The notes under the pieces: generated by a model
Seen by the model: the letters and a program-made list of their open reading frames with translations, nothing else
Told to the model about the DNA's origin: nothing
Database searches by the model: none
Shown: positions 1-40,197 of the stretch, in pieces
How the letters are laid out: the number at the start of each line of letters is the position of its first letter
Numbering within the stretch: the stretch's first letter is position 1
Source: a virus
Reading direction: 5' to 3' (one strand)
IMG/VR virus record: IMGVR_UViG_3300021071_000002
Coordinates: 1-40,197 of that record
Length of the DNA stretch: 40,197 bases
Translations under genes and position numbers: made by a program

Positions 1-428
1 CTGAAGTGGCTGTTTGCGCCCACGATCACATGGTCAAGCAGGCTGATCTGGATGATCTTCCCTGCCTCCACGAGCCGCTGGGTAAGCGTGCGGTCTGCCA
101 CGCTCGGACTGGCCTCGCCGCTCGGGTGGTTGTGCATGACGAGCACGGCATACGCCCCTATGGCCACCGCCCCCCGGAACACATCCCGCGCATGGACGAC
201 GCATTCATTCAGCGACCCGATCCCAACGAGCGTGTGACCGATGGCCGAGAGGCGGGTGTTGAGCATGACGGACACGCACATCTCCCGCTCGGGGTCATAC
301 CACGGCATCACCGCGATTTTCTCCTGCCAGTAGGCCGCGGCGGACATCGGATCATCCACGCGCATCGAACCGGGCGTTTCGTTGAGCCGCTGGATGCGGA
401 TCTCAAACGTGGATTTCGAGTAGCGCAT
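1..428 (-). CDS. radC: RadC-like JAB/JAMM domain protein (3' end outside window)
   Basis: Reading the minus strand from the ATG at 428 gives an open frame to the window edge, so only the first 142 or so residues are visible. The metal-binding signature HNHPSGEASPSVAD (HxH...S..D) is followed by LLDHVIVG, which is diagnostic of the RadC family (DUF2466, a JAB-type metalloprotease fold). RadC proteins are common on phages, plasmids and islands, and their biochemical role is unsettled. A purine-rich Shine-Dalgarno site (GGAG) lies just upstream of ATG. The start overlaps the 3' end of the preceding small gene, so it is the last visible gene of the minus-strand operon. Confidence 0.88.
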   Translation of the reverse strand, partial: MRYSKSTFEIRIQRLNETPGSMRVDDPMSAAAYWQEKIAVMPWYDPEREMCVSVMLNTRLSAIGHTLVGIGSLNECVVHARDVFRGAVAIGAYAVLVMHNHPSGEASPSVADRTLTQRLVEAGKIIQISLLDHVIVGANSHF

Positions 429-552
429 GGCCCTCCAGTTTCCGGGCGATCGAGGCGACGGCCTCCGCGCCCTTCTTATATACGACGACCGCAATGAGCG
501 CGTCCCCGCGCCACACCGCCCAGAACCGGTTGTATCGGGCGATGCGGATCAT
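403..552 (-). CDS. 49-aa small protein of the left operon, function unknown
   Basis: The start is the ATG at 552 because it follows a strong AGGAGG-type Shine-Dalgarno site and forms an ATGA overlap with the upstream gene. The product is mostly one hydrophobic-basic stretch (FWAVWRGDALIAVVVYKKGA) followed by a short amphipathic tail. It could be a two-strand beta hairpin plus helix, as in small phage regulatory proteins. No family is recognised. The longer upstream extension of this frame runs antiparallel and parallel to real genes and is not used. The 3' end overlaps the start of the RadC-like gene by 26 nt, which suggests translational coupling. Confidence 0.6.
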   Translation of the reverse strand: MIRIARYNRFWAVWRGDALIAVVVYKKGAEAVASIARKLEGHALLEIHV

Positions 553-737
553 GGCGTTTCCTCCTGCGTTGATGGCGCGCGGCGCTCCCAGTCCAGGGCG
601 GCGGCTTCCGCTTGCGCGTGGGTGGGGAAGTTCTCCCCGACCCACCGCTCGAAAGCCCCGCCCGCATCCCGGCCACCGCGCACAACTGTCCAACCAAGGG
701 CGGCGGGGACAACTTCCGGCTGATGAAGCACGTTCAT
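549..737 (-). CDS. 62-aa small protein of the left operon, function unknown
   Basis: ATG at 737 overlaps the stop of the preceding HTH gene as ATGA, with GGGGTGGGG upstream as a ribosome-binding site. The sequence contains GWTVVRGGRDAGGAFERWVG followed by an alanine-rich helix (AQAEAAALDWERR). That pattern is typical of small phage proteins with one beta hairpin and one helix, in which a W..V.....G...W.G.. core precedes a helix. No function can be assigned. Membership of an operon in which every junction is overlapping is the main support for it being a real gene. Confidence 0.6.
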   Translation of the reverse strand: MNVLHQPEVVPAALGWTVVRGGRDAGGAFERWVGENFPTHAQAEAAALDWERRAPSTQEETP

Positions 738-1324
738 TTTCCCCACCCCTCTCTGCGGATGCGGGCCTTGAGCGTGTTGACCGGCACGTTGAACTGCGCT
801 GCCGTCTGCTTCACGCTCCGGTCGCGCACGTAGCGGCGTTTGATTGCCTTCCAATCCGGTCCGAGGATCGCACGGATTGGGGCTGGAATGCCGCGAATTT
901 CCGCGCGCCGCCGGACGTTTGGGATAGCGATGGAACCGTCGTCCGCGATGCTCTCGGGGAGTTGGGCGTCCGCCATCGGGTTGAACCGCTTGGTTTCCTT
1001 CCGCGTCTCCAGCCGCGACATCCGCTGTTGGATTCCCACAAGTGCCGTGCCCGTCACCGCATTGACCGCCTCACCAACGAGCTTCGGGATGTTCACCGAG
1101 GGCATTCCCCGGCGGGTTGTCGTAATCGCGGCCATCTGCGTGGTCACAATCTCGCGGATCAACTCCAGCGGGATTTCCGTGATCGCATAGACAACTCCCG
1201 TCAGGCTTTCCAGCCCGAGCGACTGTTTCATCTTTTCGCGGGCCTCGCGGGGCGTTTCCGCTTCGAGCCGCTCGTCAAAGACAATCTCGCTCGACCGGCT
1301 TGCCACAAGTTTGAAGAGTTTCAT
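734..1324 (-). CDS. Phage protein with C-terminal helix-turn-helix
   Basis: The 196-aa product starts at ATG 1324, overlapping the stop of the amidotransferase gene as ATGA. Residues 1 to 55 form a compact alpha/beta-looking N-terminal part ending in LTGVVYAITEIP. The middle is helical. The last 45 residues (DWKAIKRRYVRDRSVKQTAA then NVPVNTLKARIRREGW) are a textbook helix-turn-helix of the kind found in terminase small subunits and sigma-like phage regulators. Since a separate terminase small subunit exists at 7.8 kb, a regulatory or DNA-binding role in the early region is more likely. No specific family name is recognised. Confidence 0.75.
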   Translation of the reverse strand: MKLFKLVASRSSEIVFDERLEAETPREAREKMKQSLGLESLTGVVYAITEIPLELIREIVTTQMAAITTTRRGMPSVNIPKLVGEAVNAVTGTALVGIQQRMSRLETRKETKRFNPMADAQLPESIADDGSIAIPNVRRRAEIRGIPAPIRAILGPDWKAIKRRYVRDRSVKQTAAQFNVPVNTLKARIRREGWGK

Positions 1325-1953
1325 GCTACGGCCTCCGTTGCTGCCCAGAGGGCGAGTTGGTCGGTGGGCTTCTTCCTCCAACGAAGATTCCCCGAGCGTT
1401 CGAGCTCGTAGAGGAACCCGAGATTCGAGCACCGCATCCCGTTCCATTCCCGCCAGTCCCCGAAGAGGCTGGTTTTGCTCGCGCTCATGAGCACGAACCG
1501 CCCGTCCACGCTATCGAGCAGATCCGGATCGTGCAGGTGGTTCACCAGCAGCGCCATCACCCGGCTGTCGCTGATCGGCCCGCCGACTTTCCGTTTCTCG
1601 GCTTTTTCGATGTAGGCGAGAGCGTCTTTGAACCCGCCCCACGTCCCATTGTGGAACAGGACGCGGCTTGCTTTCCCCACGAGCGCGGTTTGCGCCGACC
1701 GGTTCACCGGGAACGGGTGGCAGAGCTCCGGACTGATCCCTCCCACGCTCGCCCAACGGAAGTGGATCACGACCTCCCCCTTGAGCTTGCGCAGCAGTTG
1801 ATGAACTTCGATGGGGCCAAGGTTCTTGGCCCACTGCACTTCCCCACCAGCCCGCCATGCCACTCCCGCACCATGCGGGTTGGCAGCAGCGCAGGCCATC
1901 AGGGTATTCAGGCCCGGCCGCACTTTCGGCGGGCACACGATGATAACGCACAT
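1321..1953 (-). CDS. Class II glutamine amidotransferase-like (Ntn hydrolase) protein
   Basis: The 210-aa protein begins MCVIIV, placing a cysteine at residue 2 as the expected N-terminal nucleophile once Met is removed. HFRWASVGG and LFHNGTWGG match the arginine-containing and HNG elements of class II (GATase-2) domains. The family hydrolyses glutamine or acts as an Ntn amidohydrolase. No synthetase domain is attached, so a partner would receive the ammonia or supply the substrate. The amidoligase gene directly upstream is the obvious partner, and such pairings have been described for phage amidoligase clusters. A Shine-Dalgarno site (GGAAAA) precedes ATG 1953. Confidence 0.82.
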   Translation of the reverse strand: MCVIIVCPPKVRPGLNTLMACAAANPHGAGVAWRAGGEVQWAKNLGPIEVHQLLRKLKGEVVIHFRWASVGGISPELCHPFPVNRSAQTALVGKASRVLFHNGTWGGFKDALAYIEKAEKRKVGGPISDSRVMALLVNHLHDPDLLDSVDGRFVLMSASKTSLFGDWREWNGMRCSNLGFLYELERSGNLRWRKKPTDQLALWAATEAVA

Positions 1954-1992
1954 ATTTTCCTTTCTGTTTTGTTGGTTGATTTGTGCCGCCGA

Positions 1993-2009
1993 CTACGCAC
2001 GTTGCGTAG
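1993..2009. repeat. Perfect stem-loop between amidoligase and amidotransferase genes
   Basis: CTACGCA and TGCGTAG form a 7-bp stem with a 3-nt loop (CGT) in the only sizeable gap (72 nt) of the left operon. No T-run follows on the minus strand, so it is not a standard terminator. It could be an mRNA processing or stability element, or an operator. Confidence 0.5.
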
Positions 2010-2025
2010 CCATGAGCACAAAAAG

Positions 2026-2970
2026 TTAGAGATTCGCGTCGGCATATCGTCCGTCGAATTGGCGGCAGAGGCGCAGGGCCTCGCGGCTGTGATTGGCGAA
2101 ATCCGCGTGCAGGCGGCCGAAGAGCCCGAGGGCAACCGGGCGGCTGGATCCTGTCCATCCAAGGTAATCCCAGAGGAACTGCACCGACTCGGCGGCGTTG
2201 CGGGTGCGCGACTGCTGGAGCTTGTTCTTTGTGAACCCGCCGAGGCATTGAACCTCGTGAGCGCGGCGGCAGAGCCCGAGGGCAGTCCCCACGTGATGTT
2301 GGACTTTCGCCAAATTGACCGTGCCGGCGAAGGCGCGGAACTCCACGAGGCCGTGGCTGAAGAGCTTGCGGAAATTCACCATCCCGCGTCCGCACGCCAC
2401 CGCTGCTTGTTCCTTGCGTCTCACATCCGCGTCGTGCTGCATCTTTTTGACGAGCTTTGCCACGTCCTCCGCGAACGTGTGGCTGAAGTGGTTCAGGTGA
2501 CGTCCCGTGCCCGTCTGGCCGTAGATCGCGCGCGCGTGCCACTGGGCGATGTGGGCGAGCTTGCGGGCGAAGTCCGCTCGGGCTTGTGCGTCCGAGGCAC
2601 CGATCACGCTGTCCACGCTCACGGTCACATGACATCCGCAGGAATCGTTGACCCGCGCCCCGATCCCGTTCAGCCAGCCAACGAAGTCGCACATCCCCGC
2701 CACCCCGGCCTCCCCGTGGAGGATGGGCGACACAAACTCGCAGGCCATCTCCCCCGGCTGGCACCGGATCGAGCCGTCGCGTTCGGCGTTCCATTTGGCC
2801 CGGTTGAAGGCGGGGGCGGCAAGGATCGTGGACTCGCCCACGCGAAGTCCTCCGGTCACGGGGCGGCCCCCATGGTAAGATCCAACGGTGATCCCGCTCG
2901 TGGCGGGAATGGCGGTTTCCAGTTCAATCCCGAAGCGGATCTCCGTGGCTTTGATGTCGGCTGGTTTCAT
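2026..2970 (-). CDS. Putative amidoligase (glutamine-synthetase-fold, Amidoligase_2 family)
   Basis: The 314-aa product carries the family hallmarks in order: FGIELET near residue 13 (GxExE strand), ERDGSI and then EFVSP near residues 80 to 100, SCGCHVTVSVD near 130 (GxHVHV-like motif), and VEFRAFAGT near 225 (the EfR element). Amidoligases of this family are predicted to make amide bonds between a carboxylate and an amine using ATP; substrates are mostly unknown. The start ATG 2970 follows GAGGG and lies 2 nt past the stop of the 83-aa small gene, so the two are translationally coupled. The next gene is a glutamine amidotransferase domain. The longer reading frame to 3027 overlaps the upstream gene and is rejected. 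Confidence 0.8.
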   Translation of the reverse strand: MKPADIKATEIRFGIELETAIPATSGITVGSYHGGRPVTGGLRVGESTILAAPAFNRAKWNAERDGSIRCQPGEMACEFVSPILHGEAGVAGMCDFVGWLNGIGARVNDSCGCHVTVSVDSVIGASDAQARADFARKLAHIAQWHARAIYGQTGTGRHLNHFSHTFAEDVAKLVKKMQHDADVRRKEQAAVACGRGMVNFRKLFSHGLVEFRAFAGTVNLAKVQHHVGTALGLCRRAHEVQCLGGFTKNKLQQSRTRNAAESVQFLWDYLGWTGSSRPVALGLFGRLHADFANHSREALRLCRQFDGRYADANL

Positions 2971-2972
2971 AA

Positions 2973-3224
2973 TCAGCCCTCGTAATCGCGGACCCCATGA
3001 ACTTCGGCTCCGGTTTGCTCCACCCACTTGTCGAGGGCAGCGAGGTTTTTGAAGACCAGCCTCCAGCTCGTGCTTTTCATGCCCTTCACCCCATAGGCTT
3101 CCACTCTGGCGGCCAGTTGATTTGATGTTGTCGTTTTCATATAGGTTGTTGCTGAAGTTATTGTTGACTGAGGCTTGAACCTCTTCCGGTCAGCCGCGTA
3201 GTGTCCATCGGAAATGAACGCCAT
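2973..3224 (-). CDS. 83-aa basic small protein, first gene of the amidoligase operon
   Basis: ATG 3224 is chosen because GGGAG sits 8 nt upstream; an internal ATG at 3140 has no Shine-Dalgarno site. The N-terminal third is basic and Thr/Ser-rich, and the C-terminal part (VKGMKSTSWRLVFKN then ALDKWVEQTGAEVHGVRD) looks like a small alpha/beta fold in which a helix ALDKWVE is followed by a strand. From memory similar KGMKST-W small proteins occur in other phages and islands, without assigned function. Its 2-nt spacing from the amidoligase suggests that it could be a partner, regulator or protein substrate. Confidence 0.65.
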   Translation of the reverse strand: MAFISDGHYAADRKRFKPQSTITSATTYMKTTTSNQLAARVEAYGVKGMKSTSWRLVFKNLAALDKWVEQTGAEVHGVRDYEG

Positions 3225-3428
3225 ATTTGTCTCCCATTTTACTTAGGTTCAACGGGTTGGCATGATAGTTGAATAACCCGCACGGTCAGTTCGGACAGCA
3301 TTTATCAGGCGTAGGAATGCGTTTGCTCGTCAGCCTCAAAATGGCCGGAACTTGTGTTGATGCCTCGTGGCGGGCGGGTGCCCTCCGGGGTGGTATAGGG
3401 GGAGGCCGAAAACCGCATTTTCTTCCTG

Positions 3429-3456
3429 TTGCGCGATGTCGGAAAATCCGTAGGGT
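3429..3456 (+). promoter_or_regulatory. Predicted promoter for the YecH-like gene
   Basis: TTGCGC (3429-3434) and TAGGGT (3451-3456) are separated by 16 nt, and ATG 3465 lies 8 nt after the second box, so transcription would begin at or next to the start codon. No Shine-Dalgarno site is present, consistent with a leaderless message. The boxes match the sigma-70 consensus only partly. Confidence 0.35.
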
Positions 3457-3464
3457 GCAGCCCA

Positions 3465-3713
3465 ATGACAACCAACCAAGTCCACGGGCACGAGATCATG
3501 TCGCTCGTCGCCAAATATCCGGAGGGCATTGAGGTCGCCACTCTCAGCGACATCGTTGAGCACGAGTTCGGCTCCGGCACACGCTTCTTCACATGCTCGG
3601 CGGAAGGGATGACGCTCCAAGAGCTCATGACCATCCTGGTCGAGCGAGGCAAATTCCAACTCCGCGACAACCGGCTTTTCCCCGGCGACGCTCCTGCCTG
3701 CAACCACGACTGA
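3465..3713 (+). CDS. YecH-family (DUF2492) probable metal-binding protein
   Basis: The 82-aa protein starts MTTNQVHGHEIM and contains TRFFTCSAEGMTLQELM, ends near GKFQ and finishes in CNHD. The conserved HGHE, FxTCSA, MT..EL and terminal CNH pattern is that of the small YecH/DUF2492 proteins described as probable metal-binding proteins. It is transcribed against all its neighbours and ends 3 nt before the end of the DNA ligase gene on the other strand. This placement inside a phage early region is typical of a moron, an extra gene carried with its own promoter. The role in the phage or host is unknown. ATG 3465 is preferred over upstream GTG or ATG codons because homologues begin at this Met. 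Confidence 0.78.
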   Translation: MTTNQVHGHEIMSLVAKYPEGIEVATLSDIVEHEFGSGTRFFTCSAEGMTLQELMTILVERGKFQLRDNRLFPGDAPACNHD

Positions 3714-3716
3714 GGC

Positions 3717-4652
3717 TCACATATCCCATGCCTCGCGGAACCCGATGAACTTGGGGAACCGGGGGGCGTCTTTGGCTCCGCTTGGCTGGTGGCTGAATTT
3801 GACGAGCTTCCCAATCAATGACTCCTTCCGCAGCCACAGGCTTGCCCGGTCGATGCCGCCGAGCACATGGTTGTAGCCAAGCCGGAATTCCACGCCCGTA
3901 TCAATCACCCGGACGATGAACCCGCCGAGCTCGCCCCGGCCGATCATCCCGGCTTGGGCCATGCTCCGCTTCGTGCGTCCGAAGGCGTCAAGCCCGGCTT
4001 CGTTCTGGTTGGTCATCCCCTCGTAAGGTTCGAGCACAACCGCCTCAGCATCCTCAAACCGCTTGATCTTGAGCAGCCAGCCCTCGCGCTCGGTTGAACG
4101 ACCGCATTTGTATGGCCCCGCAGGATCGCGCACCATCACGCCCTCGTATCCCTCGGCAAGGCATTTTTCCTCATAAGCGGCGAGCTGGGCGGCGTCGGCA
4201 ATTTCCACCGGCAACACCTTCTCGACGTGCTTCCACTCGGGCAGGCGCGCGAGTTCCTGCATCCGGCAGGCATAGGGAACTTCCACGCCCTCGCACACAT
4301 AATCAAAGACGTGGAAGAGGAAATCCGGCTCGCCGCTTTCCCGGCCGATCGCGCTCGTGGTGGCATTGAACGTGCCCCCGCGCAGCATGAGCTCGCCGTC
4401 CACGCCGTCCGGCAGGTTCGCCTCAATCCACTCGCGGGCGAACCGGTTGCTGATCGGCTTGTAGGAACGCGTGAGTGCGCGGCCTCGGATTTTCAGGCAG
4501 CGGATCCCATCCAACTTGGGCGTGGCCAACACCGGAAAGTGCAGGTTCGCCGGGCACTCGCATTTCCCGGCGAGCATCGGCTTGGTGATTTGCGCGGGGT
4601 TCGCCGCGTGCGATCCGGTCTTGTCCGGCGTGGCTATGTTTTGCGTCTTCAC
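3717..4652 (-). CDS. ATP-dependent DNA ligase, phage T7-like
   Basis: The protein contains the nucleotidyltransferase motif I KLDGIR with the adenylated lysine near residue 46. It also carries DGELMLRGG (motif III-like), FHVFDYVCEG, EGYEGVMVRD (motif IV) and WLLKIKRF (motif V), and ends with an OB-fold region containing RGELGGFIVRV. At 311 aa it matches small phage ligases that seal nicks in DNA. GTG 4652 is chosen because it puts the motifs at family positions and sits 37 nt after a 16-bp element also found 36 nt before the RarA-like gene. ATG codons at 4718 and 4763 in the same frame are alternatives but lack good ribosome sites and overlap the divergent promoter. Confidence 0.85.
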   Translation of the reverse strand: MKTQNIATPDKTGSHAANPAQITKPMLAGKCECPANLHFPVLATPKLDGIRCLKIRGRALTRSYKPISNRFAREWIEANLPDGVDGELMLRGGTFNATTSAIGRESGEPDFLFHVFDYVCEGVEVPYACRMQELARLPEWKHVEKVLPVEIADAAQLAAYEEKCLAEGYEGVMVRDPAGPYKCGRSTEREGWLLKIKRFEDAEAVVLEPYEGMTNQNEAGLDAFGRTKRSMAQAGMIGRGELGGFIVRVIDTGVEFRLGYNHVLGGIDRASLWLRKESLIGKLVKFSHQPSGAKDAPRFPKFIGFREAWDM

Positions 4653-4689
4653 CCCTATTTTATCCTGCTCCGATGCCTCGCCGTGGAAG

Positions 4690-4705
4690 CGCTGAATGAC
4701 ACCAT
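4690..4705 (-). promoter_or_regulatory. Shared 16-bp upstream element, copy 1 (DNA ligase)
   Basis: Read on the minus strand, ATGGTGTCATTCAGCG is repeated exactly at 5645-5660. Here it ends 37 nt before GTG 4652. It may be an operator or part of an early promoter; a TAAAAT hexamer lies closer to the start. Confidence 0.5.
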
Positions 4706-4770
4706 AGTTTTCGCCCATTTTGCGCGGACAGCCTGAGTTGGCGCGGAAGTTGAAACCGCTCATTTTGAGA

Positions 4771-4805: not shown

Positions 4806-5024
4806 ATGGATTATGAAGCCGTCAACGCCATGCTCGTCATGTTCGGGCAATCGCCAATTCCGGAGCCGAAAGAAGGATCAGAGAAGGAGAAGCTGACGCA
4901 TCTTCTGGACGTTTATACGGATCGCCTGATTGCCGCCAATCCCGGCAAATACGATTCGATCCCGCGCGATATTATTCCCGAGACCATCATCCAAGGTTTG
5001 CGCACGCGAATCGCCGAACTTTAG
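4806..5024 (+). CDS. 72-aa acidic small protein, unknown
   Basis: The predicted product has an amphipathic helix (NAMLVMFGQSPIPEP) followed by a charged helical stretch (EGSEKEKLTHLLDVYTDRLI) and a short C-terminal helix. The composition looks protein-like, and the frame is open from an ATG with a -10-like box just upstream. The stop codon overlaps the stop of the minus-strand gene downstream (TAG over TTA), so the genes converge exactly. It sits, like the YecH-like gene, in inverse orientation inside the early operon and is probably a moron. No family was recognised. Confidence 0.55.
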   Translation: MDYEAVNAMLVMFGQSPIPEPKEGSEKEKLTHLLDVYTDRLIAANPGKYDSIPRDIIPETIIQGLRTRIAEL

Positions 5025-5608
5025 CCGTCAACCAAATGATCAAAGAGCCCCGGCTGGAATGGCTGGAGGGCGGCATGCTCGGCGTTGAAGAATTGAGCCT
5101 TGGTGGCTCCTGACGCCTTCCCCTTGCGGGTGTGGCAGTCAAACGCATAGTCGGGAATGGGGATGTATTCCGGGGCTTTGCGAAGATCGTCCGCAAGTGT
5201 GCTGGCATCCACTCCCTTCATCTGGTCATAGACGAGATTTTGAAGGTGGTCGGGGTCGCGGCTTTTCTTGACCGCGCAGAGGATGATCACCGCTTTGGAA
5301 ATGAAGATCCTGCCCTTGGCCTTCCGGGCGGGCACGTTGTCGTTCACGATCAGGTAGGAATCGTGGAGCGCCTTGACCTCGGCGGTAATCAGGCCCCAGC
5401 AATCCTCCGCACTCACAGTGAGGAGCCGCTTCCACACGTAGTTGCCAAACCCGCTCGCCCAGAGTTCCAACGCCCAGTATCCGGCAAGCTGGGTGTCGGC
5501 GCGGCGGATTGATTTCTGCATCGCCGACGACACTTCGCTGAATTTGTAGTTCCTGATCGTGCAAAGTTCCATATCAGGTGGCCCAAGGCGGAAGAGTGGC
5601 TTTTCCAT
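5021..5608 (-). CDS. Stand-alone RarA/MgsA C-terminal-domain-like protein
   Basis: The 195-aa protein contains MQKSIRRADTQLAGYWALEL, then KRLLTVSAEDCWGL, a hydrophobic ISKAVIILC segment with KKSRDPDH, and IPIPDYAFDCHTRKGK. This is the order seen in the C-terminal half of RarA/MgsA replication-restart ATPases (pairs of sites worked by one subunit, a SAEDIG-like motif, then K..N, then a P.Y..D..T.KG-like end). The AAA+ ATPase part is absent. Phage and plasmid proteins with only this region exist; they may bind SSB or replication partners. ATG 5608 follows an excellent GAGAGGAGG Shine-Dalgarno site. Confidence 0.62.
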   Translation of the reverse strand: MEKPLFRLGPPDMELCTIRNYKFSEVSSAMQKSIRRADTQLAGYWALELWASGFGNYVWKRLLTVSAEDCWGLITAEVKALHDSYLIVNDNVPARKAKGRIFISKAVIILCAVKKSRDPDHLQNLVYDQMKGVDASTLADDLRKAPEYIPIPDYAFDCHTRKGKASGATKAQFFNAEHAALQPFQPGLFDHLVDG

Positions 5609-6584: not shown

Positions 6585-7262
6585 CTACCCTGCGGTTGGA
6601 GCGGGGGCGGCACTGGCCGCTTTTTGCGCGAGTTCGATAAGTCTTTTTCCATGGAGGACGCGGCCGATGCCGATTTTCTTGGTTTTGCGGGTGATTGAAT
6701 AATCCACTTCCTTCACGCCGATGAGTTGGAGCGCGAGCATCCAGTCCCGGAGGTCATGGAAGATAAAAACCAGGTAGTCATGGTGCTCGAATGCCTGGCA
6801 TTCCATGAGCGGGATCGTTTCTAGGTCTTCGGCGGGATCAGCGTCTGCGAAAAGTTTGGCGATCTCGTCCTCCATAAATCCGGTCAACTCGATGTCGAAC
6901 GTGGGATCGCTTTCCCGCAATTTATCCACGACCCGCTTGAGATCGTCCTCGTCGAGCTCGGCCAGTTCAGAAAGCCGGTTGTCGGCGAGCAGATCGGCCA
7001 ACTCCGCCGCCTCAGACTCGTAATCCTGGATGTCCACTGGCACGGTTTCGCAACCGATGAGCAGGGCTGCTTCGAGCCGGCCGTGGCCGCGGACGATCAG
7101 CCCGCTCCGTTTGCTCACCGTGATCGGCGACCGCCACCCTTGTTCCTGGATGATCGCGGCCAGAAGCTGGATCTGGTGGGCGCTGTGCCGGTTCGGGTTG
7201 ACCGGGTTCGGTTTGAGTTTCCGGGGATCAACGAGCTGGTTATGGGCGCAATGGACGGTCAC
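6585..7262 (-). CDS. ParB-like nuclease domain protein
   Basis: Residues 12 to 100 show the ParB N-terminal fold: LVDPRKLKPNPVNPNRHS, then GWRSPITVSKRSG, then IVRGHGRLEAALLIG (the GHGR motif), then VPVDIQDYESEAAELADLLA and DNR. Phage ParB-like proteins are DNA-binding or nuclease proteins and are often next to DNA-modification genes. The C-terminal 80 residues (from MECQAFEHHDYLVFIFHDLR) form an additional alpha/beta region found mainly in phage versions. The start is GTG 7262, 14 nt after TTGACA on the minus strand. It is followed by the glycosyltransferase gene and shares a divergent control region with the HTH gene. Confidence 0.82.
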   Translation of the reverse strand: MTVHCAHNQLVDPRKLKPNPVNPNRHSAHQIQLLAAIIQEQGWRSPITVSKRSGLIVRGHGRLEAALLIGCETVPVDIQDYESEAAELADLLADNRLSELAELDEDDLKRVVDKLRESDPTFDIELTGFMEDEIAKLFADADPAEDLETIPLMECQAFEHHDYLVFIFHDLRDWMLALQLIGVKEVDYSITRKTKKIGIGRVLHGKRLIELAQKAASAAPAPTAG

Positions 7263-10219: not shown

Positions 10220-11133
10220 TTCTTTAGAGAAATCCAGATGCGAGCACAGCCATGATCGGAAGGGATTCCTTCTTTCATGCGTTGGCGTGATGGGCAATCA
10301 TCGCATTCGATGAAAAATATCTGTTTGAGTTTTTGCGTGGCGATCCTCGCCATGATCTTCTGCGGCAAGGCGGATGCGGTCACTCACGATTGGGCTGCGG
10401 ATCCCCTGAAGGAAGTCCAAATTAACACCGTTGCTTTTCGCGGATGGATTCCGGATACAACGAAACCGCTCTCCGGAGTTCTCGTCTTGATTCCGGGGCG
10501 ACATGGCGACGGCCGGGGGATGGCCGATGCTCCCCAGTGGCAGAAATTGGCGACCGACCTCGACTTCGCCATTCTGGCCTGTCAATTCAGCAACGGAGAA
10601 CCCTTCCCTTACCAGAACGACGCCCACGGAGAAGTGGCCAAATGCATCAACACCGCCGTGGAACATCTCAGCGAGTTGAGCGGCAAAGCGGAGCTCAAAA
10701 AGGCACCGCTTGCGTTTTGGGGCGTGTCGGCTGGCTCGAATGTCTCAGCCCGCTACTGCGTGTTTTTTCCCGAACGCGTGGCGGCGTTCGCGAGCTCGAC
10801 CGGCACATGCGGTCCCGGCGGCGAAATTTCTGTGAAGACATTGGACATCCCGATGGTCTTTGCCATCGGAGGGACGGACAAACCAGACTGGGTCAAAGGC
10901 TCGATTGCCAATGCGGAGCGGGGACAGGGCAAGGCCCCGTGGACGGTTGCGCTGCAAAAGACCCAGGGACATGGGGTAGGCAAGAGCATGGATGTCATCG
11001 TCCCGTTCCTGCTGGCGACGGTCAAACAGCGACTGGGGGTTGCATCGCCGACTCAGACTCCAAGCATCTTCAAAAGTGAGTTGCCAAATATCGGCTCCTC
11101 ATCTCATTCCACTGCCAGCACGCAGAAATCCCT

Positions 11134-11141
11134 GAAAAAAC
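11134..11141. repeat. Target-site duplication, left copy
   Basis: GAAAAAAC directly precedes the left end of the ISL3 element and is repeated exactly at 12588-12595. An 8-bp duplication is the size expected for the ISL3 family. Confidence 0.9.
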
Positions 11142-11164
11142 GGCTCTTCAAAGAAATCTGTGGG
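11142..11164 (+). repeat. ISL3 left inverted repeat
   Basis: It matches the complement of the right end at 16 of 23 positions, with CTGTGGG identical. The first in-frame stop for the interrupted hydrolase (TAA) follows immediately. Confidence 0.8.
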
Positions 11165-11250
11165 TAAAAACGAACCAGTTTGATGGGGGCTGTGCGCCCC
11201 CAAACCCCGCACCGCTCGCCGCGGCAGGCGTTCGGGGGGAGACTTGTTGG

Positions 11251-11336
11251 CGCTTGCCTGGGGCAAGCGTGAAAAAAATGAGGCTGGCGGAGCCCGAAAG
11301 GGCTCCTGTAAACCAGCCGTTATGTGTCACATAACG
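11251..11336 (+). promoter_or_regulatory. Hairpins and palindrome ahead of the transposase start
   Basis: Three structures are stacked here. CGCTTGCC/GGCAAGCG (11251-11269) is the first. GGAGCCC-GAAA-GGGCTCC (11289-11306) follows, enclosed by GGCTGG/CCAGCC (11282-11318). Last comes a perfect 19-bp palindrome, CGTTATGTG-T-CACATAACG (11318-11336), which contains the ATG. Such structures can block ribosomes arriving on read-through transcripts, or can bind the transposase. Confidence 0.6.
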
Positions 11337-12581
11337 TTGAAAACCATACTGAGAGAAGTTCACCCGATCAAGGGCTTTGTCTATCAATCCGTGACGAGGG
11401 ATCCGGTCCGCCCGAAAGCATTTCGGGTGCAAATTGCCGAGCGCCAGGGCTGTTGGGGGATTTGTTCGGGTTGCGGAAAGAAGGGGCCGGGATATGATCG
11501 GCAACCGGAACGCCAATGGGACTTCATTCCCCTCTGGGGCATGGCCGTTTTTCTGGTCTATGCGCCCCGGCGAATAGACTGCAACAAGTGCAGACCGACC
11601 ATCGAGAGGGTTCCTTGGGCCACCGGCAAGCACCAGATCTGCGATGTGTTCCGGCTCTTCCTTGCCCAATGGGCTCGCCTGCTTTCTTGGGCGGAGGTTG
11701 CCAGATGCTTCCGCGTCAGTTGGGCCGACGTGTATGGAGCCGTCAAATGGGTCGTAGAATACGGCATCGAGAACCGCGATCTTTCCGGCGTCCAAGCTCT
11801 CGGTGTGGACGAGATCCATGTGGGCAAGAAAGACAAGTTCTGGACGCTGGTCTATCAGATCGACGACCACTGCAAGCGGCTCCTGTGGATCGGCACCGAC
11901 CGCACCGAGGAGACCTTCAACCTCTTCTTTGAGGTTTTCGGCACCGAGTTCTGCAATGGCATCCGCTTCATCTGTTCGGACATGTGGAAACCCTACATCA
12001 AGGCGGCCGCCGCTCACTTGCCCCACGCACTTCAAATCCTCGACCCCTTCCACATCGTCAAAAAACTCAATGACGCAGTCGATGAGATCCGACGCGAGGA
12101 AACCCGTGCGCGTGTCCAAGCCGGCCTCGAACCCTTGCTCAAAAAAATGCGCTGGGCGTTCTTGAAAAGACGATGCAACTGGACCAAGGGGCAGCGCCGT
12201 CGCATGCGAGAAATTGAGGGCTCTGCTCTGCGCACCCTGCGGGCCTTTCTTCTGGTCGAAGCCTTCAGACACTTCTGGACGTATTGCTCGCCGACTTGGG
12301 CCGGAAAATTTCTTGACGCATGGTGTGAAAAGGTCGCCCGCTCGCGCCTGGATCCGCTCAAAAAAGTTGCCCGCACCCTCCAATCCCACCGAGGTCTTCT
12401 TCTCAACTATTTCAAGGCCGCCAAGCAGTATTCCAGCGGAGTCGTCGAGGGTCTCAACGCCAAGGTGAAATTGACGCTAAAACGCAGCTATGGATTTCGC
12501 ACGGAAAACGCTCGCGAAGTCGCTCTTTATCATTGTCTTGGAAAATTACCCGAACCCAGTTTCACCCACAGTTTTTTTTAG
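11322..12581 (+). CDS. ISL3-family transposase
   Basis: The 419-aa protein has the ISL3 layout: an N-terminal zinc-finger region with CSGCGKKG and later DCNKCR, an HTH region (SWAEVARCFRVSWADVYGAV), then the DDE catalytic core. The core includes ALGVDEIHVG (first Asp), FICSDMWKPYIKAA (second Asp) and SGVVEGLNAKVKLTLKR (Glu), ending in KRSYGFR. The length is usual for the family and no stop or frameshift is seen, so it is probably active. ATG 11322 is the start that fits the domain; the frame is open upstream to 11244 through the hairpins. The stop codon lies within the right inverted repeat. Confidence 0.93.
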   Translation: MCHITLKTILREVHPIKGFVYQSVTRDPVRPKAFRVQIAERQGCWGICSGCGKKGPGYDRQPERQWDFIPLWGMAVFLVYAPRRIDCNKCRPTIERVPWATGKHQICDVFRLFLAQWARLLSWAEVARCFRVSWADVYGAVKWVVEYGIENRDLSGVQALGVDEIHVGKKDKFWTLVYQIDDHCKRLLWIGTDRTEETFNLFFEVFGTEFCNGIRFICSDMWKPYIKAAAAHLPHALQILDPFHIVKKLNDAVDEIRREETRARVQAGLEPLLKKMRWAFLKRRCNWTKGQRRRMREIEGSALRTLRAFLLVEAFRHFWTYCSPTWAGKFLDAWCEKVARSRLDPLKKVARTLQSHRGLLLNYFKAAKQYSSGVVEGLNAKVKLTLKRSYGFRTENAREVALYHCLGKLPEPSFTHSFF

Positions 12582-16961: not shown

Positions 16962-17855
16962 ATGTCCAACATCCTCACCAACGCAAAAGACGTCAAAGTC
17001 GCGCAGTCGGCCCTCAAGCCGTTCATGGCGACGCTCCTGCCCATGCGGGCATTCTCCAGCAACTTTTCGCCCGAGCCCGCTGACAAGCTCGACACGATCC
17101 GCGTCCCGATCGTGGGCGCACCGAGTCCGGCAAGCGACTTCGGCGGAAGCTACACGACCGACGTGGATTCCTCGATCGACGTGGCTCCCGTGCAACTGAA
17201 CCGGCACAAATACAAGACCGTCCATGTCACAGCCCGCGAGGCGGCCGAGACCGCACTCAACGTGCTGGAAACCCTGGTTGGCAGCGCGGTCAAGCAGCTC
17301 GCCCAGGATGTGCTCCAGGACATCTTCACAGAGATCACGACCGCCAACTACGGCGCACCCGCGATCGCCGCCCTGGCCTCGACCGCCTTCGACTACAAGA
17401 AGGTGCTCGGCGTGCGGGAAGCCTGCGGGGCGGCGAGAATGCCGAGCACAGACCGTGCGCTCGTGCTTGATGCCGCCTACTTCAGCAACCTCCTTGGTGA
17501 CGACATCGTGGCCAAGAGCTTCATGACGCCGGTTGCTCTTCCGGGCGTGGTCGATGGACTCATCCGCCGCCTGGCCGGGTTCGATGTTTATGAAACCACG
17601 ATCCTGCCAAACAGCGACGAGAAGCTGGTCGGATTTGCCGGGCATCCGAGCTGCCTCGCGGTGGCGATGCGCTACCTCCAGCCTGTCGCCCAATACGACG
17701 AGGCTGGCGCGGTCACCGATCCCGAAACCGGGCTCACCTTCGGCTACCTGCGCTACACTGAGACCAGCTCGAACCGGATCTTCGTCACCGTCGAATGCCT
17801 CTACGGCTTCAAGGTGGCGATCCCCGGCGGCCTCAAACGCATCGTCAAACCCTGA
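16962..17855 (+). CDS. Major capsid protein
   Basis: The 297-aa protein follows the protease-scaffold gene by 6 nt, the standard position. It has FMATLLPMRAFSSNFSPEPA at the N-terminus and TIRVPIVGAPSPASDFGG, typical of capsid N-arms and E-loops. Later comes GFDVYETTILPNSDEKLVGF, then FAGHPSCLAVAMRYLQPVAQ and SSNRIFVTVECLYGFKVA, the P-domain-like pattern of many HK97-fold coat proteins. The exact Pfam family is not certain. A strong terminator lies 22 nt downstream, consistent with high expression. Confidence 0.85.
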   Translation: MSNILTNAKDVKVAQSALKPFMATLLPMRAFSSNFSPEPADKLDTIRVPIVGAPSPASDFGGSYTTDVDSSIDVAPVQLNRHKYKTVHVTAREAAETALNVLETLVGSAVKQLAQDVLQDIFTEITTANYGAPAIAALASTAFDYKKVLGVREACGAARMPSTDRALVLDAAYFSNLLGDDIVAKSFMTPVALPGVVDGLIRRLAGFDVYETTILPNSDEKLVGFAGHPSCLAVAMRYLQPVAQYDEAGAVTDPETGLTFGYLRYTETSSNRIFVTVECLYGFKVAIPGGLKRIVKP

Positions 17856-17877
17856 TCTGTAGTTCGGTTGTGCATAG

Positions 17878-17907
17878 CCCCCGCATCAGCAATGGTGCGG
17901 GGGTTTT
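17878..17907 (+). terminator. Rho-independent terminator after the capsid gene
   Basis: CCCCCGCA and TGCGGGGG form an 8-bp GC-rich stem with a 10-nt loop, followed by TTTT. It separates the head operon from the toxin-antitoxin insert. Confidence 0.88.
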
Positions 17908-36767: not shown

Positions 36768-37136
36768 ATGAGTCCTGATGAAAAGTTAGACCTCTCGCTG
36801 TGGCGTCAACAGATCGACGAGAGCATACACCAGATGCAAGAGCGCCATAAGTTAGAAGACAAGTATGCGTGGCAATCGGGTCCTGATGATTCGAGCTCTC
36901 CATTTCGACGGCATGCTGAACTTTTAACAGCTTTCGATCTACTGCGCGAGCTATCCACTCACGCGGGCATACCGGAAAGCAGATTCAATTTCGTTGTTCA
37001 TCAACGATTTCTTTATCATTTAGATTCCCTTTATTCTGATATGTCTGATTTATACAAGGAAACTGCGTCGAGAATGGACGACCGGACAGAGGATGAGATT
37101 TACACCGGAGAAGAGCCGCCACAGTTATTTGAATGA
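36768..37136 (+). CDS. Integron cassette protein of 122 aa, unknown
   Basis: The acidic protein is mostly helical: LDLSLWRQQIDESIHQMQER, then SPFRRHAELLTAFDLLRELS and SRFNFVVHQRFLYHLDSLYS. No family was recognised. It is AT-rich compared with phage genes and follows the half attC by 23 nt, the typical start of a cassette gene. Confidence 0.6.
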   Translation: MSPDEKLDLSLWRQQIDESIHQMQERHKLEDKYAWQSGPDDSSSPFRRHAELLTAFDLLRELSTHAGIPESRFNFVVHQRFLYHLDSLYSDMSDLYKETASRMDDRTEDEIYTGEEPPQLFE

Positions 37137-37145
37137 AAAAAAGGA

Positions 37146-37181
37146 GCGAACTGACCCGCTTAGCTGACGAGGACGTGCGGC
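37146..37181. repeat. Short degenerate attC-like site
   Basis: GCGAAC and GTGCGGC flank only 36 bp. GCTGACGAGGACGTGCGG aligns with the 3' side of the site at 38806-38984 (CTGACGAGGGACGTTAG). It is compact and could be a decayed attC with a deleted loop. Confidence 0.45.
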
Positions 37182-37187
37182 AATAAT

Positions 37188-37772
37188 ATGAAAAAAGAAT
37201 CCCTCAAGCGATACTTTAGGCCGCATTCGATTTATCGCGGTAGGAAGACCACTATGGCTGGCGCATTTGCCCATAGTATTGCGCCTGTTGATGATTTCGA
37301 TTCCGCGAAAGCGGATGCCGCTCTTCGCATGCTTGGACAAGATCCGTCTACGGAATTAATTTGCGTATATTGCACTAAGCCAGCCCAAACGTGGGATCAT
37401 TTATTGAGCATTGTTAAAGACGGTGAGTTTCGAGGTTATGGACATCAACTCGGAAATCTTGTCCCTTGCTGTAAGGACTGTAATTCCGGAAAAGGAGGAA
37501 AGAGCTTTGAGGATTTTATTATTCAATCGCATGGCAATAATTCCAAATCGCGTGAAAAAATTAAACTGCTAGAGTCCTATTCTCAGATGTTTGCAAGGTT
37601 TGTTGATAATTCTGCCCTTGATAAGAGTTTTCCCGCTGAAATTATGCGCTACCGAGAAATACGGTCTAAGATTTATAAGTTGATGCAGGAAGCCGATGTT
37701 ATTGCGCATGACATCCGTGCTAAAACTAAAGGATCAATGACAGGAACTACAGAGTTCAACCAAAGCGTATGA
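37188..37772 (+). CDS. HNH endonuclease-like cassette protein
   Basis: The 194-aa protein has a zinc-bound HNH domain: ICVYCTKPAQTWDHLLSIVK (CxxC then WDH) followed by GNLVPCCKDCNSGKGGKSFE (N, CxxC, N, K). The C-terminal part is helical (LLESYSQMFARFVDNSALDK). HNH nucleases cut DNA and occur in restriction or phage defence. A cassette location with attC on both sides indicates mobility. The GC content is low. The start is ATG 37188. Confidence 0.82.
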   Translation: MKKESLKRYFRPHSIYRGRKTTMAGAFAHSIAPVDDFDSAKADAALRMLGQDPSTELICVYCTKPAQTWDHLLSIVKDGEFRGYGHQLGNLVPCCKDCNSGKGGKSFEDFIIQSHGNNSKSREKIKLLESYSQMFARFVDNSALDKSFPAEIMRYREIRSKIYKLMQEADVIAHDIRAKTKGSMTGTTEFNQSV

Positions 37773-37806
37773 ATATCTCTGGAGTCAGAAACGGAAAAAA
37801 TATACA

Positions 37807-37898
37807 GCCGAACTGGTCAGTCGACCGAATGGCGGGAACGCGCCTAGTTGGACCGCGACGCCTCTCCGCCCGCCATCCGGTCACTTTGGACGTTCGGC
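37807..37898. repeat. attC site of the HNH cassette
   Basis: GCCGAAC and GTTCGGC form the outer pair. GACCGAATGGCGGG and CCCGCCATCCGGTC form the second arm, with one bulge. The site lies 34 nt after the HNH stop and is followed 6 nt later by the next ATG. Confidence 0.75.
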
Positions 37899-37904
37899 AA
37901 CAAA

Positions 37905-38312
37905 ATGAATCCGCTCGCACGCCTTTTTCACAAACCTCCGGCTTCTCCAGCAGAATTGTGGGTTGGCTTGCTTGCAGCCGTCCGCGACAGTAACACAGAG
38001 AGAGTAAAGGAGATTTTATCAGATCATCCGGAGATGATTTCAAGGACAGACGACAAAGGAATGACTGCCTTGCACTGGGCTGCCCAATATCAGACTCTCG
38101 CAAGCACGGCCTGCCTGATCGATCATGGTGCTAACCCCCATATCAAAGACAACCTTGGCTACGTTCCTCGTCAAGTTGCACAATGGTATGGGGAGTATCG
38201 AATGGGAGCGTATACCGAGAGTTGCCTGAAAATAGTTGATAGAATAAAAAAGGCCGAACGGGACAGCCCACCCAACGACTCCCCGTCGGTTGTCGACGAA
38301 AGCTCACCATGA
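37905..38312 (+). CDS. Ankyrin-repeat cassette protein
   Basis: The 135-aa protein contains two or three ankyrin repeats: LLAAVRDSNTERVKEILSDH, then DDKGMTALHWAAQYQTLAST, then ACLIDHGANPHIKDNLGYVP. These are protein-binding modules. A short helical tail ends within the attC. The start ATG 37905 lies just after the R' box; a longer frame from 37848 would run through the attC and is rejected. Its function is unknown. Confidence 0.78.
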   Translation: MNPLARLFHKPPASPAELWVGLLAAVRDSNTERVKEILSDHPEMISRTDDKGMTALHWAAQYQTLASTACLIDHGANPHIKDNLGYVPRQVAQWYGEYRMGAYTESCLKIVDRIKKAERDSPPNDSPSVVDESSP

Positions 38313-38376
38313 CAAAATTACCAGCCAGCATCCACGCGCCGCTTCCGGGGAGTCGTTGGTGGCTTTGACGTTCGGC
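38253..38376. repeat. attC site of the ankyrin cassette
   Basis: GCCGAAC and GTTCGGC are the outer boxes. Long arms CCCACCCAACGACTCCCCG and CGGGGAGTCGTTGGTGG pair almost perfectly. The site overlaps the 3' end of the ankyrin gene. Confidence 0.78.
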
Positions 38377-38384
38377 AAACAAAT

Positions 38385-38828
38385 ATGACCATTCCTAATT
38401 CCATCACTGCCATCCAAAGTCGTGGGAGGACATTTTACATTTGTGCCCTTTTGCTATCCGCCGTCATGCTTTTTGAGCCCATTTTTTCCTCGCTGATTTT
38501 CTTGCTTGTATTTAATGTCGCCCTCAGGAATGGCTTCTTTTCCCTGCAAATAGCAAAAGGGCGCTTTGTGATCATCGCCGAGATAATTGTTATTGCTATT
38601 ATGTTAGTCAGCATTGGCATGTCTGTTGCAAAACCATCACCAAGCATCCGATTAGATTCCGATCCACTTAGCGATTACTTGAAGGTGATCGCCCTCCTTT
38701 ACATAGTGTGGGTTTTGATTTTTTCGAAATCCGTAAAGGAGTTCATTATTTACCAAATAAAGTATTTCCGCGCGCGTGAGATGAAACAGATCCAAGATGA
38801 TATAGGCCGAACTGGCTCGTCCAGCTAA
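38385..38828 (+). CDS. Membrane protein cassette, three to four spans
   Basis: The 147-aa protein has hydrophobic segments near residues 18 to 33 (YICALLLSAVMLFEPI), 36 to 48, 62 to 82 (FVIIAEIIVIAIMLVSIGMS) and 102 to 118 (VIALLYIVWVLIFS), with a charged helical tail. No function is known. The 3' end lies in the next attC. Codon use is AT-rich. Confidence 0.65.
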   Translation: MTIPNSITAIQSRGRTFYICALLLSAVMLFEPIFSSLIFLLVFNVALRNGFFSLQIAKGRFVIIAEIIVIAIMLVSIGMSVAKPSPSIRLDSDPLSDYLKVIALLYIVWVLIFSKSVKEFIIYQIKYFRAREMKQIQDDIGRTGSSS

Positions 38829-38984
38829 TCGCTGGCCGTCAGGAGTTTCGATGAACACCGATTTGACGTTCCACCGCTCAGGCACAGGGCCTGCTGGCAG
38901 AAGAGCAGGTCGAGTGCCTTCGCTCCCGATGCGTGCGAGCCACATGCACCGCCAGCCAGCGATACCTGACGAGGGACGTTAGCA
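38806..38984. repeat. Long attC site of the membrane cassette
   Basis: GCCGAAC (38806) and GTTAGCA (38978) are the outer boxes. CTCGTCCAGCTAATCGCTGG pairs with CCAGCGATACCTGACGAG. The site is 179 bp, with a further arm of GC-rich sequence between, and no other gene in it. Confidence 0.72.
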
Positions 38985-39002
38985 GAACAAATACTACTCT
39001 CT

Positions 39003-39701
39003 ATGCCACGCAAAACCAATTTTCGATTCGCAACCCGATTTGGGAGTGGAAGCTTATCAATGACGCCGGAGGCCCTTCCGCAGGGGCTCCAGTTTCTGAT
39101 TCTGATGAATGCTGCAGTAGATATTCCGCTCCAGATGTTGCGTCGTGGAGGCATTGTTGCGATACTCGGCTTATGTCTGTTCCCCATCATGATTGCCCTT
39201 GTCGCGATCCCATTTCTCTTAGTTGTGATTTATAAGGTTATCGCTTATCTAATTGCAATATTTCAACCAAATCTACCAGATCAACACTCCTTATTACCTA
39301 TGAACCAAAACATTCAGACGGAACCCTTGCCAGCCCCTGACTCGCCACTTTCAAAGTTTATCGGAGCAATTACCTGGACATACCTGAGCGACAAGCCAGA
39401 TGACAAGTATCCTGTCCGTCGAGCAATTTTTGATGGCAACAAAATGACCGTTGATTGCAATACGGGATCCAAGATGAAGCCCTATGTCTTTACGATCATT
39501 TTATATACGGAGAATGGCAAGCATTTCAAAGGGACTTTTGTAGGAGGATCTCCTCCGAATAATACGGATGGATCTGCCGAGGGCACACTTCAACGAGTTT
39601 CTAATGGAGTGATCTTAAGTGGGACATGGATCGAACAGGGAGAAGAAAGCAAATGGCTTATGGCACTAAAGCACGTTGATAAGTTTCCAGACGAAATCTA
39701 G
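39003..39701 (+). CDS. Cassette protein with two membrane spans and a beta domain
   Basis: The 232-aa protein has a basic start (PRKTNFRFATRFGSG), a hydrophobic region near residues 48 to 90 (GGIVAILGLCLFPIMIALVA then IPFLLVVIYKVIAYLIAIF), then a soluble domain (AITWTYLSDKPDDKYPVRRA, YTENGKHFKGTFVGGSPPNN, NGVILSGTWIEQGEESKW). No family was recognised. It starts 18 nt after the attC R' box and has AT-rich codons. Confidence 0.62.
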   Translation: MPRKTNFRFATRFGSGSLSMTPEALPQGLQFLILMNAAVDIPLQMLRRGGIVAILGLCLFPIMIALVAIPFLLVVIYKVIAYLIAIFQPNLPDQHSLLPMNQNIQTEPLPAPDSPLSKFIGAITWTYLSDKPDDKYPVRRAIFDGNKMTVDCNTGSKMKPYVFTIILYTENGKHFKGTFVGGSPPNNTDGSAEGTLQRVSNGVILSGTWIEQGEESKWLMALKHVDKFPDEI

Positions 39702-39728
39702 TTATAACCTCAAATAGACATATATTTT

Positions 39729-39872
39729 ATGGCAAGGATGAAATGGGACATGCAGAGTTACGGCTATCACCGAAAGAGCTCAAGAAAAGCAAAGGGGTGT
39801 CTAATTATTATTGGCGCATTGATTGCTCTAGGCGTGGGATCTTCATGCATTATAGCTCAAATCATAAAATAG
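39729..39872 (+). CDS. 47-aa single-span membrane protein
   Basis: MARMKWDMQSYGYHRKSSRK is a basic cytoplasmic start, followed by one hydrophobic segment (CLIIIGALIALGVGSSCIIA) and a short end. It is the second gene of the same cassette, 27 nt after the previous stop and before the attC, too short to be found by length alone. Confidence 0.5.
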   Translation: MARMKWDMQSYGYHRKSSRKAKGCLIIIGALIALGVGSSCIIAQIIK

Positions 39873-39875
39873 AAA

Positions 39876-39999
39876 GCTAACGAGCCAGTTGACCTAATCC
39901 CTGTCCCTTCGGGACTTTCGGCATACCTCCTGCTGATCCGCTTCGCGGGCAGGAGGAATGCCGAAAGCAAGCAGGGATAGGTCACTGGGGACGTTCGGC
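39876..39999. repeat. Highly structured attC site
   Basis: GCTAACG and CGTTCGGC are the outer boxes. TGACCTAATCCCTG pairs with CAGGGATAGGTCA. An inner palindrome (CTTTCGGCAT...ATGCCGAAAG, with CCTCCTGC/GCAGGAGG) forms a long stem, and GTCCCTTCGGGAC a further small hairpin. Confidence 0.8.
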
Positions 40000-40008
40000 A
40001 AAGAAAAT

Positions 40009-40197
40009 ATGAAGCTCTCTGCCAATGCGGTCGCCGTTCTATTTATCCTGATACTTGTCGCTTCAGGATTCATGCTCATGTCAACACCCTATGGTCGCGC
40101 TTGGTTCTGGTTGTTTTTAGCTTTGTATCCGAGTAGCAATATTGATTCATCAGTTGGCTTGGCTGTTTTTGGTCTTTTTATGGCAGCCGTTTATTTC
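40009..40197 (+). CDS. Membrane protein cassette, cut by the window end
   Basis: Starting at ATG 40009, 9 nt after the attC, the frame is open to the last base (63 residues). It encodes a hydrophobic start (LSANAVAVLFILILVASGFM) followed by WFWLFLALYPS and SSVGLAVFGLFMAAVYF, so two membrane spans are visible. No function can be given. Confidence 0.6.
   Translation, partial: MKLSANAVAVLFILILVASGFMLMSTPYGRAWFWLFLALYPSSNIDSSVGLAVFGLFMAAVYF

Follow-up and report, generated by a model that had tools for sequence, protein, structure and literature searches.

The stretch of DNA analysed here (the window) is the IMG/VR virus record IMGVR_UViG_3300021071_000002, with 40,197 bases and 58% G+C, and our subject is a pair of neighbouring genes on its minus strand, encoding an amidoligase of the glutamine synthetase (GS) fold and a stand-alone class II glutamine amidotransferase (GAT). 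Terminase, portal, S49 protease, capsid and tape measure genes are on the plus strand, and a serine recombinase gene is on the minus strand near the right end. Amidoligase-bearing loci from the genome collection lie in Verrucomicrobiota contigs in 45 of 46 cases, the other being a planctomycete. Thus, from its relatives, its tailed-phage structural genes and its recombinase, the virus is a temperate tailed phage or prophage of Verrucomicrobiota. A DNA search gave no phage match to the first half of the window. The two genes are as follows.

2026..2970, minus strand: amidoligase, GS fold (Amidoligase_2), 314 residues; assigned by PF12224, phrog_2443, motifs and AlphaFold2 (AF2) fold
1321..1953, minus strand: stand-alone class II GAT, an N-terminal nucleophile (Ntn) hydrolase, 210 residues; assigned by motifs, AF2 fold and linkage

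Both enzyme assignments had been made in an earlier reading of the bare sequence (the original prediction), and both held. The amidoligase scores 39.6 bits against PF12224 (Amidoligase_2), whose curated cut-off is 22, and 50.6 bits against phrog_2443 (amidoligase). Its motif residues are all present: G14, E16, E18, D65, S67, E78, C111, G112, H114, E210, R212, G216 and T217 are invariant in 25 of 25 aligned relatives, so that the motifs GxExE, DxS, E, CGxH and ExR, with the Glu, His and Arg residues characteristic of the GS fold, are kept. In VIA-align comparisons, the AF2 model (pLDDT 92.7) is closest to YbdK (Z 12.1, root mean square deviation (rmsd) 4.7, 240 residues), a plant glutamate-cysteine ligase (GCL; Z 11.9, rmsd 4.2, 235 residues) and 1-naphthylamine glutamine synthetase (Z 11.5, rmsd 4.2, 228 residues). 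Glutamine synthetases are also among the best matches; the GCL/GS range is Z 10–12, where values within 1 of each other count as tied. GS-fold ligases activate the gamma-carboxyl group of glutamate. The amidoligase profile retrieved nothing related from the PDB sequences, PADLOC gave no match for the amidoligase or the GAT, and NCBIfam none for these two or for the neighbouring TAGT-like glycosyltransferase.

The GAT scores 14.8 bits against GATase_4 (PF13230), under the cut-off of 23, and is therefore assigned to the class II GATs on its motifs and fold and not to GATase_4; a homologue in a Bifidobacterium phage passes the same cut-off with 27.8 bits. Residues C2 (after the start Met), R66, H79-P80-F81, H101-N102-G103 and S128-D129 are invariant in all 25 aligned relatives, which provides the N-terminal cysteine nucleophile and the glutamine-pocket residues typical of class II. 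For the AF2 model (pLDDT 90.3), VIA-align ranks the glutaminase domain of GlmS first (Z 14.3, rmsd 3.4, 168 residues), and EgtC is matched as well (Z 13.6, rmsd 3.2, 160 residues). Since the pocket residues of class II GATs recognise a free alpha-amino acid end, the substrate should be glutamine or another gamma-glutamyl amide. A PDB sequence search with a family-only GAT profile gave a best E-value of 0.24. Sequence alone does not decide between a gamma-glutamyl hydrolase and an ammonia donor, because a broader GAT profile matches both GFAT (24.7 bits) and 3mdn (23.4 bits), as well as 1te5.

Compared with five relatives, the ratio of nonsynonymous to synonymous substitution rates (dN/dS) is 0.16–0.25 for the amidoligase and 0.15–0.33 for the GAT, against 0.04–0.17 for the ParB, TAGT, DNA ligase and RarA-half genes nearby, where measurable. 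Both are therefore maintained as proteins, yet they evolve faster than the surrounding genes. An amidoligase broken by a stop codon was seen in one related record (L107 8349–9368, the record of L052), and a locus of Chthoniobacter flavus Ellin428 (L082) resembles the same prophage.

We then examined linkage in a family set of 52 viral and 46 genome-collection loci holding the amidoligase, with flank minima applied per gene. The GAT is present in 51 of the 52 viral loci and in all 45 of those with at least 1 kb downstream. Among the genome loci, 35 have sufficient flank and 29 of these hold the GAT; several of the other six have only a partial amidoligase match, and one is the planctomycete locus L102. 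Where the gene order is rearranged (L041), the amidoligase, the GAT and the following helix-turn-helix (HTH) gene are still together. Distances of the amidoligase and the GAT correlate with r 0.95 over 2850 pairs, but those of other genes against the amidoligase give 0.76–0.94; since nearly every gene in the block correlates highly, this value singles out no pair.

The linkage extends to distant phages. Viral contigs were searched with a GAT profile (A3) that had been built from GATs already known beside an amidoligase; the best 80 of 148 relatives were used, and two single-protein searches added 10 and 12. Outside the family this gave 46 GAT loci, of which 42 extend 1.5 kb or more upstream. 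An amidoligase-like gene lies on the same strand within 3.2 kb upstream in 40 of the 42, as counted with models (A7–A9) built from the upstream genes themselves. By clusters of 90% identity, the count is 29 of 30. The exceptions are L223, with about 1.5 kb upstream, and the Bifidobacterium phage locus L056, where the amidoligase-like gene just upstream of the GAT (1944–3553) is split over two frames, being broken or frameshifted in this one record. Independent support for the very diverged upstream genes comes from PF12224 matches at E 0.01 in 14 of 30, plus motifs. Three groups of upstream genes, each compared once with the amidoligase profile by hhalign, gave E-values of 2e-6, 1e-4 and 3e-4. 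The same count scored 24 in-family loci as misses, which we read as an artefact of overlapping stop-to-stop frames, each of these loci having one amidoligase match.

Phage C75C1 has a GAT homologue with a fused GGACT/AIG2 domain (76.8 bits) and, upstream of it, a gene of the Amidoligase_2 family (106 bits). The fusion occurs in 13 of the 46 distant loci, a number inflated by 12 loci that were retrieved using the fusion protein as query. In some marine phages (L185–L198), the amidoligases preceding the GAT carry a long cysteine-rich insert, metal-binding in appearance. It is thus strongly supported that amidoligase and GAT form a real, conserved, compact and transferable two-gene phage cassette, as had been proposed for a compact amide-forming system. 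The pair is a near-constant unit in very different phages, and this points to one shared reaction. Genes for the TAGT, the ParB-like protein and the RarA half, all neighbours in the family, were each found near the pair in none of the 46 distant loci, and they are ruled out as core partners.

The 83-residue open reading frame (ORF) directly upstream, which had been counted as a coupled small protein and put forward as a bait for co-occurrence searches, does not belong to the unit. Tblastn found no match to it in the 52 viral and 46 genome loci (0/98), and it has neither a Pfam match above cut-off nor a PHROG match, so that only the amidoligase–GAT part of the expected co-occurrence stands. When the DNA of the four closest relatives (L002–L005) is aligned with the window, only the first part of the ORF proves common to them, and a weak search likewise finds conservation only in its 24-codon leader; in these relatives the 24 leader codons continue in frame into the amidoligase, and L085 also has the leader. 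In the window, extra DNA lies between leader and amidoligase and produces a separate 83-codon frame that ends 2 bases before the amidoligase start. The ORF therefore looks like a window-specific insertion product, and the alignment together with the tblastn result rules it out as a system partner; an insertion in the window appears to have detached the conserved leader from the amidoligase frame.

All genes of the original prediction are on the minus strand, where the reading order is ParB-like, TAGT-like glycosyltransferase, RarA C-half-like, DNA ligase, 83-residue ORF, amidoligase, GAT, HTH gene, two small ORFs and a RadC-like gene truncated at the end of the window. The proposed overlapping operon is only partly borne out. 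ATGA overlaps exist at 1321–1324 (GAT and HTH gene) and 734–737 (HTH gene and orf549), with a further 4-base overlap at 549–552 (orf549 and orf403), but 72 bases separate the amidoligase from the GAT and 2 bases the 83-residue ORF from the amidoligase. The genes around the pair are listed below.

403..552, minus strand: orf403, small ORF of 49 residues conserved 3' of the HTH gene; 36/52 viral loci, dN/dS 0.08–0.17
549..737, minus strand: orf549, overlapping small ORF of 62 residues; 6/53 loci, close relatives only, dN/dS 0.13–0.16
734..1324, minus strand: HTH gene, 196 residues, with a C-terminal helix-turn-helix; weak HTH/sigma-r4-like matches, all under cut-off
2973..3224, minus strand: 83-residue ORF, judged outside the system
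3717..4763, minus strand: ATP-dependent DNA ligase (context); phrog_114, 185 bits
5021..5608, minus strand: RarA/MgsA C-terminal-like protein (context); phrog_16866, 216 bits
5741..6652, minus strand: TAGT-like glycosyltransferase (context); PF20691, 32.8 bits against a cut-off of 27.5
6585..7262, minus strand: ParB-like protein (context); phrog_620 (ParB-like), 112 bits, and ParB_N, 22.5 bits, under the cut-off of 26.3

Of the 32 viral loci whose downstream flank reaches 3 kb, 30 have the HTH gene, which has a dN/dS of 0.23–0.44; its product is probably a regulator or a DNA-binding accessory and no enzyme. When the downstream minimum is set to 5 kb, an AAA protein resembling the N half of RarA is found in 22 of 24 viral loci. 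On the other side, 50 viral loci extend 4.5 kb or more upstream; the RarA C half is present in all 50, the TAGT in 48 and the DNA ligase in 33, and the ParB-like gene is found in 44 of the 48 that reach at least 4.9 kb. The TAGT is present in 10 of 23 genome loci with enough flank, and a whole-genome search was positive in six of 12 genomes, two of the six holding only a short piece (55 or 59 residues). RarA is seemingly carried as two genes in this phage family (window 5021–5608; L107 6203–6820), the AAA N half lying downstream of the HTH and orf403 genes and the C half beside the TAGT; the product of window 5021–5608 matches residues 125–218 of the RarA model at E 0.004, far under the cut-off of that model.

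The amidoligase–GAT pairing is already known from many phages, and the Verrucomicrobiota cassette adds one more case. According to available excerpts, LUZ24-like and RIO-1-like podoviruses carry an amidoligase and a GAT with an ATP-grasp protein, a COOH-NH2 ligase and a GGCT, a set read as a cassette for modifying peptidoglycan that perhaps blocks superinfection (PMC5498523, PMC3890496), and further accounts of such phage cassettes are given in PMC3517423, PMC6209634 and PMC11945000, likewise available as excerpts. Excerpts of an early paper place such ligases beside GAT-like peptidases or AIG2 proteins (PMC2588565). The suggestion of an undescribed pathway therefore has to be withdrawn, such cassettes having long been predicted in print for LUZ24-like, phiEco32-like and marine phages, in the portions seen usually as peptidoglycan modifiers and also as metabolic genes. 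In the passages covered, we found no enzyme assay of the pair.

The LUZ24/phiEco32-type cassette resembles the window pair in that its early region places a class II GAT after an Amidoligase_2 gene; in LUZ24, the amidoligase gp18 is directly followed by the GAT gp19, with GGCT nearby. Iyer 2009 and Hardies 2013 are reportedly the works that others cite for the peptidoglycan modification cassette of LUZ24-like, phiEco32-like and RIO-1-like phages. The LUZ24 GAT, however, is a longer GATase_6-type protein, unlike that of the window, and the COOH-NH2 ligase, ATP-grasp and GGCT partners were not found in the records of the window phage family that were searched. Phmmer at E 0.01 matched none of the LUZ24 cassette proteins to the window or to six related records, of which five are complete and one nearly so. 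Consistent with the earlier statement that no AIG2-like cyclotransferase is visible in the window, a GGACT/AIG2 domain was found in none of 16 records (the window and 15 related records), while nine of 14 control genomes were positive; PF14395 was likewise absent from the 16 records, the control genomes also giving no match.

Other systems are alike in part. EgtA/EgtC pair a gamma-glutamyl ligase of the GS/GCL fold with a gamma-glutamyl hydrolase of the class II Ntn type, a combination that the window pair would share, in agreement with the EgtC fold match, but they act with other enzymes in a bacterial metabolite pathway, ergothioneine synthesis. The pair reported for OM43 phages, in excerpts of the source, is also just PF12224 and a GATase (PMC10580990); it belongs to another phage lineage, and its GATase is assigned to PF13522, whereas the window GAT weakly matches PF13230. 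CmoA/CmoX/CmoY, as far as the excerpts describe them, share with the window a phage-borne amide ligase and ParB-type neighbours, and some Cmo clusters have a glutamine-hydrolysing domain, but CmoY is an asparagine-synthetase homologue and not of the GS fold (PMC12783734). A CmoX-like C5 methyltransferase was not found in the window phage family, the only PF00145 match in the 16 records being one fragment of 28 columns with an internal stop.

For the function of the pair, we tentatively favour, at somewhat under an even chance, a minimal cassette that would make and remove gamma-glutamyl amides on an amine, possibly in the cell wall. The system would consist of the amidoligase and the GAT-like Ntn hydrolase in the early region of this temperate phage family. 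Judging from folds and families, the amidoligase would use ATP to form a gamma-glutamyl phosphate at the gamma-carboxyl of glutamate and then join an amine to it, and the N-terminal cysteine of the GAT would cleave gamma-glutamyl amides, trimming or removing the mark. As a guess, the amine may belong to a cell wall peptide or a small metabolite, and the change may help the lysogen or the infected cell against other phages. Such a make-and-remove cassette fits the GS-fold ligase, the GAT pocket and the GGACT fusion alike: a GGACT domain cleaves gamma-glutamyl amines, and EgtA/EgtC as well as pairs of gamma-glutamylamine synthetase and hydrolase follow the same make-and-cleave logic. Several points weigh against it. 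The GAT profile fits GlmS-type glutaminases as well as it fits 3mdn, and an ammonia-feeding role is therefore equally compatible. The two gamma-glutamyl-cleaving domains of the C75C1 fusion would be partly redundant. Amidoligases are seen with no GAT match nearby in a Porphyromonas phage (L057) and in the planctomycete L102. The cell-wall target would derive from earlier predictions.

The main rival, close behind, is a glutamine-dependent amide synthetase, in which the GAT would free ammonia from glutamine and the amidoligase, with ATP, would amidate a carboxylate, for example in a cell-wall peptide. We consider this possible but rather unlikely. The match of the GAT profile to GlmS/GFAT, the first rank of GlmS in the fold comparison and the tight gene pairing agree with it, as does MurT/GatD, described in the excerpts available as a ligase and GAT pair that makes an amide in peptidoglycan. 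The correlation of r 0.95 would also agree but is unspecific, given the values for other genes. On the other hand, one group has the GAT fused to the gamma-glutamyl-cleaving GGACT domain, and the class II ammonia-feeders GlmS, PurF and AsnB have their glutaminase fused to the synthase, while the GAT here is a separate protein. A metabolic role, in which the pair would act as auxiliary metabolic genes that reshape nitrogen-containing or glutamate-derived small molecules of the host and would have no macromolecular target, appears unlikely. The fold relatives produce small gamma-glutamyl compounds. Such a role was proposed for Phage-ZRK32, which has amidoligase, GAT, glutathione synthase and GGCT genes, but in the available excerpts this rests on growth effects and gene annotation and not on enzyme assays (PMC10945688).

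Modification of phage DNA, raised in the original prediction, is weakly supported and, in our estimate, improbable. Here the ParB-like and TAGT-like genes would help to install a base or sugar, and the pair would add a group to it through an amide link or trim such a group. Within the family, the frequent TAGT and ParB neighbours suggest it, and the Cmo system is a precedent, in the excerpts seen, in which a base of phage DNA acquires an amide and ParB-type genes lie nearby (PMC12783734). But the TAGT, ParB and RarA-half genes are missing near the pair in the distant loci, and the TAGT was not found in the planctomycete or in five of 11 Verrucomicrobiota genomes holding the amidoligase, which may be incomplete. 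No thymidylate synthase or hydroxymethylase was found (PF00303, 0/16 records, with nine of 14 controls positive), the PF00145 fragment is the only trace of a C5 methylase, and TET (PF12851) was absent from the 16 records, though the control genomes gave no match either. Still less credible, and very doubtful in our view, is that the whole block of ParB, TAGT, RarA halves, ligase, amidoligase and GAT is one DNA hypermodification system, in which the amidoligase would install and the GAT trim a gamma-glutamyl or carboxamide group on a sugar or base with the help of an unrecognised base precursor enzyme. At stake is which target phages would supply with glutamyl amides, be it the wall of the host, a metabolite or the phage DNA itself, and the Verrucomicrobiota version of the cassette, being a minimal form, is suited to expression and testing.

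Some further observations concern other parts of the window and its relatives. No tRNA genes were found in the window. Between the terminase and endolysin genes, an alpha/beta-hydrolase-like gene and an ISL3-type transposase gene (10310–12581) indicate that the late operon is broken up by inserted DNA. Past the serine recombinase (36768–40197), the ORFs have a lower G+C content at third codon positions (GC3), and three that were tested are without a Pfam match; this part is perhaps host DNA. In 56 Microbacterium phages, both the TAGT and the RarA C half are matched. In one of them, Quhwah (L058 25536–28597), a ParB gene, a glycosyltransferase gene, a UDP-glucose dehydrogenase-like gene and the RarA C half stand in a row with no amidoligase match, and this row is possibly a unit for DNA glycosylation. 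L113 holds at 17023–17895 a gene resembling NAD-dependent sugar epimerases (PF01370, 196 bits), which has relatives in three of the six related records and might provide a sugar donor for the TAGT.

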